Origin: Gordonibacter massiliensis (ex Traore et al. 2017) | Lineage (GTDB): Bacteria; Actinomycetota; Coriobacteriia; Coriobacteriales; Eggerthellaceae | Assembly (NCBI GenBank): GCA_900170005.1 | Contig: LT827128.1 | Coordinates: 930,001 to 994,000 of the forward strand | DNA length: 64,000 nt | Direction of reading: 5' to 3' | Shown: positions 47,781-56,231 of the stretch, piece by piece | How positions within the stretch are numbered: position 1 is the first letter of the stretch | How the letters are laid out: every line of letters starts with the position of its first letter | Position numbers and translations under genes: made by a program | The notes under the pieces: model-generated | What the model saw: the letters and a program-made list of their open reading frames with translations, nothing else | The model's database searches: none | Told to the model about the DNA's origin: nothing

Positions 47781-48179
47781 CTACTCGCAGATGTGGGTGA
47801 GGCCCTGGGCGAGCATGGTGTACACATGGTCGTCCGACAGCGAGTAGATGACGTTCTTGCCGTCGCGCTGGAACTTCACGAGGCGCGCCTGCTTGAGGGT
47901 GCGCAGCTGATGCGACACGGCGCTTTGGGTGGCGCCGATGAGCTCGGCGATGTCGGCCACGCACCGCTCCGTGCCCATGAGGGCGTAGAGGATCTTGATG
48001 CGCGTGGTGTCGCCGAACACTTTGAACAGGTCGGCCAAGTCGTAGAGCAGCTCCTCGTCGGGCAGGGCCTCGGGCGGCTGGTCGGGCGAGAGGTGCTCCG
48101 CGCTGCCGCATGCGCAACCGTGGTCGTGCGCGGCTTGCTCGGTCGTCTGCTCGCTTCGATTCGTTTTCTTCGATCCCAT
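47781..48179 (-). CDS. ArsR/SmtB-family metal-sensing repressor (CadC/CzrA-like)
   Basis: 132 residues with a winged helix. A Cys/His-rich N-terminus (HDHGCACG) and C73 in ERCVAD match the alpha-3N site of CadC. The alpha-5 site D-x-H-x10-H-x2-E is complete: D116, H118, H129, E132, as in CzrA/SmtB zinc sensors. So it may sense both Cd/Pb and Zn. It heads the unit arsR-HMA-ATPase, and a 7-4-7 operator overlaps its promoter. Confidence 0.92.
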   Translation of the reverse strand: MGSKKTNRSEQTTEQAAHDHGCACGSAEHLSPDQPPEALPDEELLYDLADLFKVFGDTTRIKILYALMGTERCVADIAELIGATQSAVSHQLRTLKQARLVKFQRDGKNVIYSLSDDHVYTMLAQGLTHICE

Positions 48180-48197
48180 TTTTGCATCCTCTTATCA

Positions 48198-48243
48198 TAT
48201 GAACAACTGTTCATAAGTATAGGGAGAGCGACCGGACTGTCAA
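48198..48243 (-). promoter_or_regulatory. Promoter and ArsR-type operator of the Zn/Cd unit
   Basis: On the minus strand, TTGACA (48243-48238) with a 16-bp spacer and TATACT (48221-48216). Directly downstream is the palindrome TATGAAC-AACT-GTTCATA (48198-48215), which fits the SmtB/CadC operator class (ATGAACA/TGTTCAT). Repressor bound there would cover the transcription start. Confidence 0.85.
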
Positions 48244-48390
48244 GAGGGGAGGGGCATGTTTTCGCACGCTTTCACATGATTTTTTCTGCCGTTCCCGAAA
48301 TTCGTTTTTTCGAACACGGGAAAACGATTCGTGAAGTAACGACTTCGCGCTTTTGAAAGCGCTCTTCCCAAAGTACTCGTAACGAACAAA

Positions 48391-48406
48391 TGTTTCACGT
48401 GAAACA
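48391..48406. other. parS-like ParB binding site
   Basis: TGTTTCACGTGAAACA, an exact match to the 16-bp palindrome bound by chromosomal ParB. It lies in a 465-bp AT-richer gap (48180-48644) with no secure gene. Nothing else in the window resembles it. A nearby perfect site suggests closeness to the replication origin region. Confidence 0.8.
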
Positions 48407-48470
48407 ACGGCGATTAAGGTTTGCAGTTGCAAGCGTCTGGCAATCCCGAACCGATAATACAAAAAGGAGC

Positions 48471-48563
48471 ATGAATTTTGATTTGCGGGAGGACGAGCGT
48501 GAGAAAGAAGAAGTTGATGATTCTGTTGTAAATGCAACAGAAAGGGAACTGCCTCCCTGTTAG
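48471..48563 (+). CDS. Possible 30-residue acidic peptide
   Basis: ATG to TAG, encoding MNFDLREDEREKEEV and a short remainder ending LPPC. AAGGAG lies only 1 bp before the ATG, which is too near for normal initiation. There is no conserved feature I can name. It sits beside parS in the AT-richer gap. Probably not translated, but worth checking. Confidence 0.2.
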   Translation: MNFDLREDEREKEEVDDSVVNATERELPPC

Positions 48564-48644
48564 GCTTTCTTCGATACGCTGGGTGAAGGTGCCGGGCGGC
48601 AACGTTGGCGCTGGATGAACGAGAGCACTGCGAAGGGAGCGGTT

Positions 48645-49373
48645 ATGATCCGCACGATTATAAGGATAGACGCCGCGGCGTGCGACGGGTGCGGCCTCTG
48701 CGTGAGCGCGTGCCATGAGGGAGCCATCGGGCTGGTGGACGGAAAGGCGCGGCTTCTACGCGACGACTACTGCGACGGGCTCGGCGATTGCCTGCCCGCG
48801 TGCCCGGCTGGAGCCATCTCGTTCGTGGAGCGCGAGGCGGCCGCCTACGACGAAGAGGCGGTGCTCGCGGCAAAGCGCGCGCAGGGGGATCGGCTGGCGG
48901 GCGGGTGCCCGGGATCGCTTTCGCGCTTCTTCGCCGAAGAGGATGCGGCGGCGAAAACCACAACAGTGCCAAAGATCGAGACAACGGTCGAAAACGAATG
49001 CGGTCCTTCCGCGTCGGAGTTGGCCCAATGGCCGGTGGAGATCAAGCTCGTGCCGGTGCAGGCGCCGTACTTCGCGGGAGCCCACGTGCTCGTGGCGGCC
49101 GACTGCACCGCGTTCGCCTGCGCCGACTTCCACCGCAGCTTTATGCATGGGAGGACCACCGTGATCGGGTGCCCCAAGCTCGACGGCGTCGACTACGCGG
49201 ACAAGCTGGCCGAGGTGTTCGCGCGCAACGACGTGGCGTCGGTCGCCGTCGCGCGCATGGAGGTGCCGTGCTGCGGCGGCCTCGAGCAGGCGGCCCGCAC
49301 CGCGCTCGCCCGCAGCGGGAAGGACGTGCCCTTCGAGGTCGCCGTCATCTCGACGCGCGGCGAGATGCTCTAG
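48645..49373 (+). CDS. Ferredoxin-type 4Fe-4S protein
   Basis: 242 residues from ATG 48645 (AGGGAG 7 bp upstream); ATG 48615 is in frame but lacks an SD. Two clusters: CDGCGLCVSAC and CDGLGDCLPAC. The C-terminal domain has further conserved Cys residues (DCTAFAC, IGCP and VPCCGG). Such proteins occur in strict anaerobes, often near hybrid-cluster protein genes, and may bind an extra cluster. No partner is adjacent here. The function is redox, otherwise unknown. Confidence 0.82.
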   Translation: MIRTIIRIDAAACDGCGLCVSACHEGAIGLVDGKARLLRDDYCDGLGDCLPACPAGAISFVEREAAAYDEEAVLAAKRAQGDRLAGGCPGSLSRFFAEEDAAAKTTTVPKIETTVENECGPSASELAQWPVEIKLVPVQAPYFAGAHVLVAADCTAFACADFHRSFMHGRTTVIGCPKLDGVDYADKLAEVFARNDVASVAVARMEVPCCGGLEQAARTALARSGKDVPFEVAVISTRGEML

Positions 49374-54857: not shown

Positions 54858-56231
54858 ATGAAAGAAGAATTCCCGCAGACCGACGCGCCCGTTCCAGGCG
54901 CTTTGCCGTCCGGCGCAGCCGCCGGAGGCCCTAGCGCGCGCGGAGCCGCCTCGGACGACCTCCTTCCGCTCGAGGCGTGGGAGGGCCCGGCCATCCTGCT
55001 GGTGGATCTGGACGCGTTCTTCGCTTCGGTGGAGCAGCTGGACCATCCGGCCTGGCGCGGCAAGCCCGTGATCGTGGGCGGCGACGCGGACAAACACGGC
55101 GTGGTCTCCACCGCGTCCTACGAGGCGCGGCGCTTCGGGGTGCACAGCGCCATGCCCGCCTCCACGGCCGAGCGCCTGTGCCCGGAGGGCATTTGGACGC
55201 GCGGGCATTTCGACCGCTACCGCGAGATGTCGAACGCCATCATGGACATCCTGCGCTCGGAGACGCCCCACGTGCAGCAGGTGAGCATCGACGAGGCGTT
55301 CTGCGACGTGAGCCCCACGCCGGTGAACCGCGAGCATCCCGTCCAGGTGGCGCGCCGCATCCAGCAGCGCGTCGAGAAGCTGGGCGTGACGTGCTCCATC
55401 GGCGTGGGCACGTCGAAAACGATCGCGAAGATAGCCTCGGACATGGACAAGCCGCGCGGCTTGACGGTGGTGTACCCGGGGCGCGAGCGCAGCTTCCTGG
55501 CTCCCTTGCCCGTGCGCACGATGAGCGGCATAGGAGCGGCGGCCGAGCAGAAGCTCAAAAGCCGCGGCATCGAGACGCTGGGGGATCTGGCCTCCGCCGA
55601 CGAAGCCCTGTTGCTGCGCCTGTTCGGGAAAAACGGGCACGTCATGCACGTGCGGGCGAACGGGGGCGACGACGCGCCCGTCGTCACGGACGATCCGGTG
55701 AAGTCGGTGTCGAACGAGACGACGTTCGCTGTGGACCTCACCGAGCGCGACGAAGTGGAGGCCGCCATCGCCACCATGGCCGCGAAGGTCGGCCGGCGGC
55801 TGCGCCGCAAAGGGCTCGCCGGACGCACGCTAGGCCTGAAGGTGCGCTTCGACGATCGCACCGTGCGCTCGGTGCAGCGGCGCCTCGAGCATCCGAGCGA
55901 CGACGAGCTGGCCTACACGCCGCTGCTGTACCGCATGGTGGACGAGGTGTGGCACCCCGGCGTTCCCGTGCGGCTCATCGGCGTGAGCATGTCCGGTTTC
56001 GCCGCGGAGGAGGGCGTGCAGGAGAGCCTGTTCGACCTGGGCGAAGTGGCTCCCAACGACATCGATGTGGAACCCGTGATAAAGGACGAGGGGAAGCGCC
56101 GCGGCCTCATCGAGGCCACCGACCTGGTGAAGAACCGCTTCGGCGAGGACGCCGTGCGCTTCGGCCGCGAACTGCGCGCCGACGACAACACCACCGGCTC
56201 CGCCAGCAAGAACCCAGCGGACTACAAGTGA
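54858..56231 (+). CDS. dinB: DNA polymerase IV (Y family)
   Basis: 457 residues from ATG 54858. Catalytic residues: D50 in LLVDLDAFFASVE and D145-E146 in SIDEAF. Palm, fingers, thumb and little-finger regions follow in order, with a 55-residue C-tail that includes QESLFDL, a probable beta-clamp motif. An extra 40-residue Ala-rich N-terminus precedes the palm. No SD is seen; a TAGACT lies 11 bp before the ATG, so the mRNA may be leaderless or very short. An ATG at 54798 is an alternative. It performs translesion synthesis. Confidence 0.9.
   Translation: MKEEFPQTDAPVPGALPSGAAAGGPSARGAASDDLLPLEAWEGPAILLVDLDAFFASVEQLDHPAWRGKPVIVGGDADKHGVVSTASYEARRFGVHSAMPASTAERLCPEGIWTRGHFDRYREMSNAIMDILRSETPHVQQVSIDEAFCDVSPTPVNREHPVQVARRIQQRVEKLGVTCSIGVGTSKTIAKIASDMDKPRGLTVVYPGRERSFLAPLPVRTMSGIGAAAEQKLKSRGIETLGDLASADEALLLRLFGKNGHVMHVRANGGDDAPVVTDDPVKSVSNETTFAVDLTERDEVEAAIATMAAKVGRRLRRKGLAGRTLGLKVRFDDRTVRSVQRRLEHPSDDELAYTPLLYRMVDEVWHPGVPVRLIGVSMSGFAAEEGVQESLFDLGEVAPNDIDVEPVIKDEGKRRGLIEATDLVKNRFGEDAVRFGRELRADDNTTGSASKNPADYK

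Follow-up and report, generated by a model that had tools for sequence, protein, structure and literature searches.

A parS site far from dnaA in Gordonibacter massiliensis is overlapped on one side by a LexA-type SOS box

A complete copy of the ParB target parS in a short gap between a metal-responsive type of regulator and an iron-sulfur protein gene raises the question of what a centromere-like sequence is doing there, and whether the bases around it matter. The locus lies in the window, by which we mean the whole 64-kb stretch analysed (G000:C1:930001-994000) of the G. massiliensis chromosome, which is a single contig of 3,948,172 bp (genome G000). The palindrome TGTTTCACGTGAAACA is an exact 16-bp match at 48391..48406 (unstranded), precisely where the original prediction had placed a perfect parS-like site. 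Its left neighbour is an ArsR-family regulator gene (47781..48179, minus strand, Pfam HTH_5), and its right neighbour is a 4Fe-4S protein gene (48645..49373, plus strand, by domain search). The gap between them (48180-48644, 465 bp) has a GC content of 47.5% against 66.2% for the window, and had rightly been described as AT-richer. Genes encoding an E1-E2 ATPase and an HMA protein are found behind the regulator, and a CsoR-type metal-sensing repressor and a CopA-like ATPase are encoded farther on; with the ArsR and 4Fe-4S genes, these make up the metal-resistance and redox surroundings that had been predicted.

Two other elements were detected in the gap. Directly upstream of the ArsR gene stands TGAACAACTGTTCA (48200-48213), identical in the congener G003, which is likely the ArsR operator and is separate from parS; it also scores as LexA-like with the lexA matrix described below. 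Upstream of the 4Fe-4S gene, an inverted repeat TTCTGTTG-N6-CAACAGAA (48521-48542), recognisable in G003, G001 and G002 too, is possibly the operator of a regulator.

The site at 48391-48406 is the sole one with at most three mismatches in the window. Shuffled windows contained on average 0.04 such sites (at least one in 4 of 100 shuffles), in agreement with the earlier view that a chance match was unlikely. The genome-wide count that had been proposed as a check came to 25 perfect sites in G000 and 38 with at most two mismatches, which leaves 13 copies with one or two mismatches, fewer than the perfect ones, while a reversed-motif control gave 0 matches. Among 60 genomes (the own genome and relatives from the genus, family and order), 43 have a perfect parS. 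The number of perfect sites ranges from 25 to 79 in the five genus genomes (51 in G001), from 0 to 126 in the own family, and from 0 to 3 in 24 genomes of other families; four sampled family relatives have more than 100 each, with totals of 108 in G007, 109 in G035 and 126 in G008. Side by side with these counts, we noted nine close pairs of parS among the 66 listed sites of G007:C1, with a spacing of 34-36 bp in eight (for example L028 2052 and 2086) and of 48 bp in one.

Thirteen of the 25 perfect sites in G000 are located within 20 kb of dnaA, and among them one ParB is encoded, adjoining a parA-like gene (called by eye). The original prediction had depended on the organism having a ParB, and this protein carries the ParB_N and HTH_ParB domains (Pfam). 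Two of its four specificity positions, which we take to be the equivalents of Caulobacter 173 and 201, hold R and G, and the other two (presumably 179 and 184) hold A and E, compared with T and A in Caulobacter. The presence of a cognate ParB and the clustering of the same 16-mer at parB and dnaA support the parS-type identity of 48391-48406. Another ParB_N protein, shorter than that ParB at about 291 aa, is encoded beside a phosphatase-like gene (by eye; G000:C1:2579787-2579969). In G004, G007, G020 and G027 (26-108 parS sites), a single ParB_N match each was obtained.

The origin-proximal position that had been claimed for the window did not hold. Its parS is 1.63 Mb from dnaA in the 3.95-Mb chromosome, near a switch in GC skew, and so lacks the origin-region location that is typical, though not defining, of parS. 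The GC-skew plot, another of the proposed checks, shows weakly positive values over most of the window and negative ones from about 1.05-1.2 Mb, with mixed stretches, and this sign switch argues against an origin. Taken together, the distance from dnaA and the adjacent skew switch indicate that the window is close to the terminus. A loose-pattern search for a dif-like site gave no usable match. Because the opposite skew switch is placed only between about 2.6 and 2.88 Mb, distance from dnaA was used as a proxy for distance from the origin. The density of parS declines away from dnaA in G000 and G001.

To what extent distal copies resemble those at the origin was read from 132 dispersed sites (12 in G000, 12 in G003, 33 in G001, 45 in G007, 15 in G035 and 15 in G008) and 86 origin-cluster or parB-adjacent sites. 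All sites were covered in G000 and G003 and 48 of 51 in G001, while the coverage of G007, G035 and G008 was partial, in listing order and thus non-random. An extension CGNACRRA (called when at least 6 of the 7 defined bases agree) accompanies 105 of the 132 dispersed sites in the six genomes, usually on one side of parS, with seven dispersed sites having it on both. It was found at 0 of 42 sites in the three origin clusters of G000, G003 and G001 and at 1 of 44 parB-proximal sites in 11 other genomes (a twelfth locus, in G016, lay outside the scan), and random flanks yield it at 0.0095 per site. In G008, just 7 of 15 dispersed sites carry it. Beyond the core, the oriented logo holds eight bases on one side, one to three weaker ones on the other, and little information otherwise. 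This one-sided extension, which separates most distal from origin sites, had been overlooked in the original prediction. A scan of 84,980 genomes for the two-sided extension gave 2 records, from Gordonibacter pamelaeae and Eggerthella sinensis, with the own genome and its near relatives possibly omitted; it carries little information on the one-sided form. The one-sided composite motif was also seen on one viral contig (IMG/VR; L218 7168-7191).

CGNACRRA was defined on these same sites, and the sole independent test is a matrix from lexA promoters, built on 22 distinct boxes with 200 kb of sampled own DNA as background. The promoters come from 21 genomes (19 of the own family and two of another family), in which two or three SOS-type boxes, many with CGAACAAATGTTTT, stand near the start of lexA; in L170 (1405-1475) three boxes are about 28 bp apart, a layout kept in most of the 21. 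G000 encodes a single LexA, a near full-length match to LexA structures, with the autocleavage and serine motifs (AAG and ESM) present when read by eye. Its lexA promoter has the boxes AGAACCTTTGTTCG, CGAACAAAGGTTCA and AAAACATTTGTTCG, the last of which reads CGAACAAATGTTTT on the opposite strand and has its window counterpart in CGAACAAATGTTTC. This 14-bp LexA-type SOS box at 48383..48396 (plus strand), the right half of which is inside parS, is of the CGAAC-N4-GTTC type and matches the own lexA operators: it scores 19.5 with the lexA-promoter-only matrix, a value reached by about 1 in 200,000 background positions, and the operators of G000 itself score 18.2-20.7. The box stands in the divergent ArsR/4Fe-4S gap, neither gene being a known damage gene. 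Elsewhere in the window, a DinB-type polymerase gene (IMS domains) is located at 54903-56231, and directly upstream of it no match above 11 to the lexA matrix was found.

Applied to all sites read, the matrix gave scores above the 99.99th percentile, in one main register that places the second half-site within parS, for 106 of 132 dispersed sites compared with 6 of 86 proximal ones; 26 dispersed sites fall below this threshold. With the 12 symmetric strong boxes only as matrix the numbers are 78 of 132 vs 0 of 86, and at the 99.9th percentile 116 of 132 vs 20 of 86. A minor second peak lies 16-17 bases farther out (8 sites, then 2 at the next offset). The pattern CGNACRRANGTTY had 0 occurrences in the 200-kb sample of own DNA. 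In 962 kb of DNA around parS, parB, lexA and the 4Fe-4S gene, it has 70 occurrences at parS, 7 near parS and 45 elsewhere (43 of these in lexA promoters), and four permuted controls gave 2-6 matches. The third base of CGNAC is A in 43, T in 24 and C in 3 of the boxes at perfect parS (4 A, 2 T and 1 C at near-parS), as against A in 45 of 45 boxes without parS (the same 43 in lexA promoters included); the T form of this half is found in two lexA promoters, those of G009 and G027. In 402 kb of own DNA, 12 more places that are neither parS, near-parS nor lexA exceed 11 with the matrix, one of them at 20.7, so that a LexA-like score alone is not proof. One non-parS box, at L204 7952 (near 1.266 Mb in G000), equals the best lexA operator score.

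The box is missing from most parS sites lying no more than tens of kb from the origin in Gordonibacter and some related genera of its family, and is present at most of the more distant ones. At the 99.99th percentile, the box was detected at 11 of 11 G000 sites more than 100 kb from dnaA and at 1 of 14 within that distance (P-value = 2.7e-6, Fisher test). The corresponding numbers in G001, with 48 of 51 sites covered, are 23 of 24 and 4 of 24 (P-value = 2.3e-8). In G007 (49 of 108 sites covered), the 39 sites more than 250 kb away include 28 above the 99.99th percentile and 36 above the 99.9th, while among the four sites nearest dnaA none passes the former and one passes the latter. Between 20 and 100 kb from dnaA, boxes occur at 4 of 9 sites in G001 and 5 of 6 in G007, and the boundary between the two classes therefore differs between genomes.

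The composite arrangement is conserved among congeners. A 28-bp block TAACGAACAAATGTTTCACGTGAAACAA (48380..48407, unstranded) is identical in G003, where the surroundings have diverged, and in G001 and G002 the core and the extension are kept upstream of the same 4Fe-4S gene with one base of eight changed. A perfect parS is thus found upstream of this gene in four of the five genus genomes (G000, G001, G002 and G003); these four are the ones with a near full-length 4Fe-4S orthologue, and G004 gave short ferredoxin-type matches only. Ten distant relatives have a good 4Fe-4S match. In four of them (G007, G027, G031 and G035) there are sites in the locus but none within 570 bp upstream, and in the 4Fe-4S loci of the other six (G009, G010, G011, G021, G025 and G033) no site with at most two mismatches was found. 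For 9 of the 12 dispersed G000 sites, a perfect site occurs in G003 and/or G001 no more than about 110 bp from where it is predicted; for a tenth (3,902,775) the congener site is about 400 bp off, and for the remaining two there is none. This comparison was restricted to site-bearing loci, in which losses are not countable. Thirteen same-place comparisons (against G003, G001 or G002) show 7.4 of the 8 bases retained on the side of the extension and 3.1 of 8 on the opposite side, the former being the better kept in all 13; sites recur among them, so they are not independent. They remain from 17 after exclusion of 2,616,128 (twice) and 2,529,151, which have no extension, and of 2,410,713 against L148 (weak synteny).

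By our own gene calls, 107 of 117 dispersed sites in five genomes are intergenic, one is at the locus edge and 9 are within genes; in G008, which has short contigs and is outside this count, 6 of 15 were called within genes. At sites between tandem genes, the extension points with transcription in 39 cases and against it in 28 (12 have no extension), and 52 of the 79 are closer to the 3' end of the upstream gene. As a set, the dispersed boxes do not appear to be positioned like operators. The dispersed sites of G000 have diverse neighbours, among them xerC-like and mraZ genes at 3.90 Mb. Many origin and dispersed parS lie inside perfect palindromes whose sequence varies by site, with arms of up to 13 bp at the origin clusters of G000, G003 and G001 (L008, L142 and L143) and of 17 bp at one dispersed site; L041 and L156 are among the palindromic dispersed sites, and some of these structures resemble terminator hairpins with parS at the tip. 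Flanks pair more often than re-paired flanks in all nine site sets (P-value = 0.0005 to 0.015), dispersed sets included, and the mean arm in G001 is 3.4 for dispersed and 3.2 for origin sites; palindromic flanks were thus rejected as a mark of the origin class. An intrinsic terminator fits some sites by eye, with long palindromic flanks and T runs, but was rejected since the orientation of the extension ignores transcription. A DnaA box was also rejected: A never follows GTNC in 48 oriented Gordonibacter sites, where the selection score favoured G at that position.

Among the closest known systems is the chromosomal parS of ParABS (Spo0J/ParB), with which the sites share the 16-bp core, the cluster at parB and dnaA and the usual domain make-up of ParB; they differ from it in lying far from the origin, in exceeding 100 copies in some relatives and in the SOS-box extension on most distal copies. 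Published numbers are 1 to 20 parS for bacteria (PMC10197239) and 11-65 predicted parS for streptomycetes, most near oriC (PMC8743542). The SOS box of S. venezuelae has the motif tCGAAC-N4-GNNCGa and the lexA box TCGAACGTGTGTTT; it has the half-site and the 4-bp spacing in common with the box described here, and a GTTT-type second half occurs there too (PMC9380542). In Gordonibacter, by contrast, the second half is inside parS and the placement relative to genes appears unlike that of operators. Half-parS binding in P. aeruginosa likewise involves many ParB sites off the origin, there with heptamer half-sites (PMC7022226), as opposed to a complete 16-bp parS with an overlapping motif here. Among the matches listed by literature searches, as far as titles and the beginnings of abstracts tell, those for LexA with ParB or parS include none on LexA at parS, and nor do those for parS or ParB in Coriobacteri (by title) and in Eggerthella.

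The anatomy of the window site, where a LexA-type box reaches into a complete parS from one side, suggests that LexA gates the site under SOS control, a reading to which we give an even chance. The LexA half-site and the ParB half-site share the same bases (GTTTC), so LexA would exclude ParB, and from the sequences mutual exclusion of the two proteins at the composite is likely. Box-free parS near the origin would be permanently accessible to ParB, whereas in an undamaged cell LexA on the box would block ParB loading far from the origin. Upon DNA damage, self-cleavage of LexA would open many parS gates along the chromosome, and ParB clamps could load at the distal sites, possibly with SMC. Loaded clamps may then compact the chromosome or hold sisters together, pull ParB off the origin and delay segregation until repair; that compaction, sister cohesion or a segregation delay is the purpose of unlocking is a guess. 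The wider proposal, that dozens of LexA-locked distal parS form a damage-gated centromere network through which SOS makes the ParB system chromosome-wide in one gut-bacterial family, is put forward tentatively, and we lean slightly against it.

A different reading of the same two classes is that ParB itself, or another nucleoid protein, reads the extension, and that distal copies are a second class of parS in constant use, for Noc-like folding or occlusion, with the likeness to LexA boxes incidental. The looser third base of CGNAC compared with lexA promoters would suit it, as would the mostly intergenic placement regardless of transcription, which is expected of architectural sites, and the drop in site density away from dnaA in G000 and G001. 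On the other hand, a matrix made from lexA promoters only selects one main register with a spacer that fits SOS boxes too, and parB-adjacent parS have no extension although the same ParB should use them. Noc sites are likewise many and dispersed and belong to a ParB-family protein, but the Noc-binding core differs from parS, which is the core at the window site, and several relatives here gave a single ParB_N match. Noc sites also avoid the terminus as a rule, whereas in G000 at least the window site is near the skew switch. We consider this reading possible, if rather unlikely.

If parS were simply dispersed, as is common in Actinomycetota, distal copies would be tolerated leftovers with functionless flanks; some of the predicted streptomycete parS (11-65 in number) do lie far from oriC (PMC8743542). 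Such leftovers agree poorly with the excess of perfect over one- or two-mismatch copies (25 vs 13) and with a perfect core and one flank kept in place between species while the other flank diverged; this one-sided conservation makes ordinary dispersal hard to hold, and we regard it as improbable. A mobile or REP-like repeat that contains parS by chance might account for counts from 0 to 126 within the sampled family and for the nine close pairs among the 66 listed G007 sites. Sites of this kind would share a unit beyond the binding site at unconserved positions; there is little information outside the core and extension, and sites occur at matching places between species, which leaves this origin very improbable. 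It is hardly more credible that a conventional LexA operator, or a promoter element of the ArsR or ferredoxin gene, resembles parS by chance: divergent promoters are to be expected in this gap and the box is SOS-like, but all 16 bp of parS are retained, TGAACAACTGTTCA stands apart from it, and the same kind of composite is found beside unrelated genes elsewhere.

What a lock by LexA would achieve can be considered from the cost of extra parS in other bacteria. In Caulobacter, a second parS cluster is reported to be tolerated best if no more than about 500 kb separates it from the native cluster, and to be disfavoured mid-arm; for parS near the terminus, the same study describes strong discouragement in P. 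aeruginosa and B. subtilis and tolerance in Caulobacter (PMC5815017). Since Caulobacter tolerates terminus parS, some bacteria may do without a lock on terminus sites such as that of the window; where extra distal parS are costly, a LexA lock would answer the cost, and SOS would lift the lock. These bacteria retain complete parS far from the origin, most of them with a potentially locking box. If true, the LexA-gating reading would account for the wide spread of parS on a chromosome, and SOS would be tied to the segregation machinery at the level of DNA sequence instead of gene expression.
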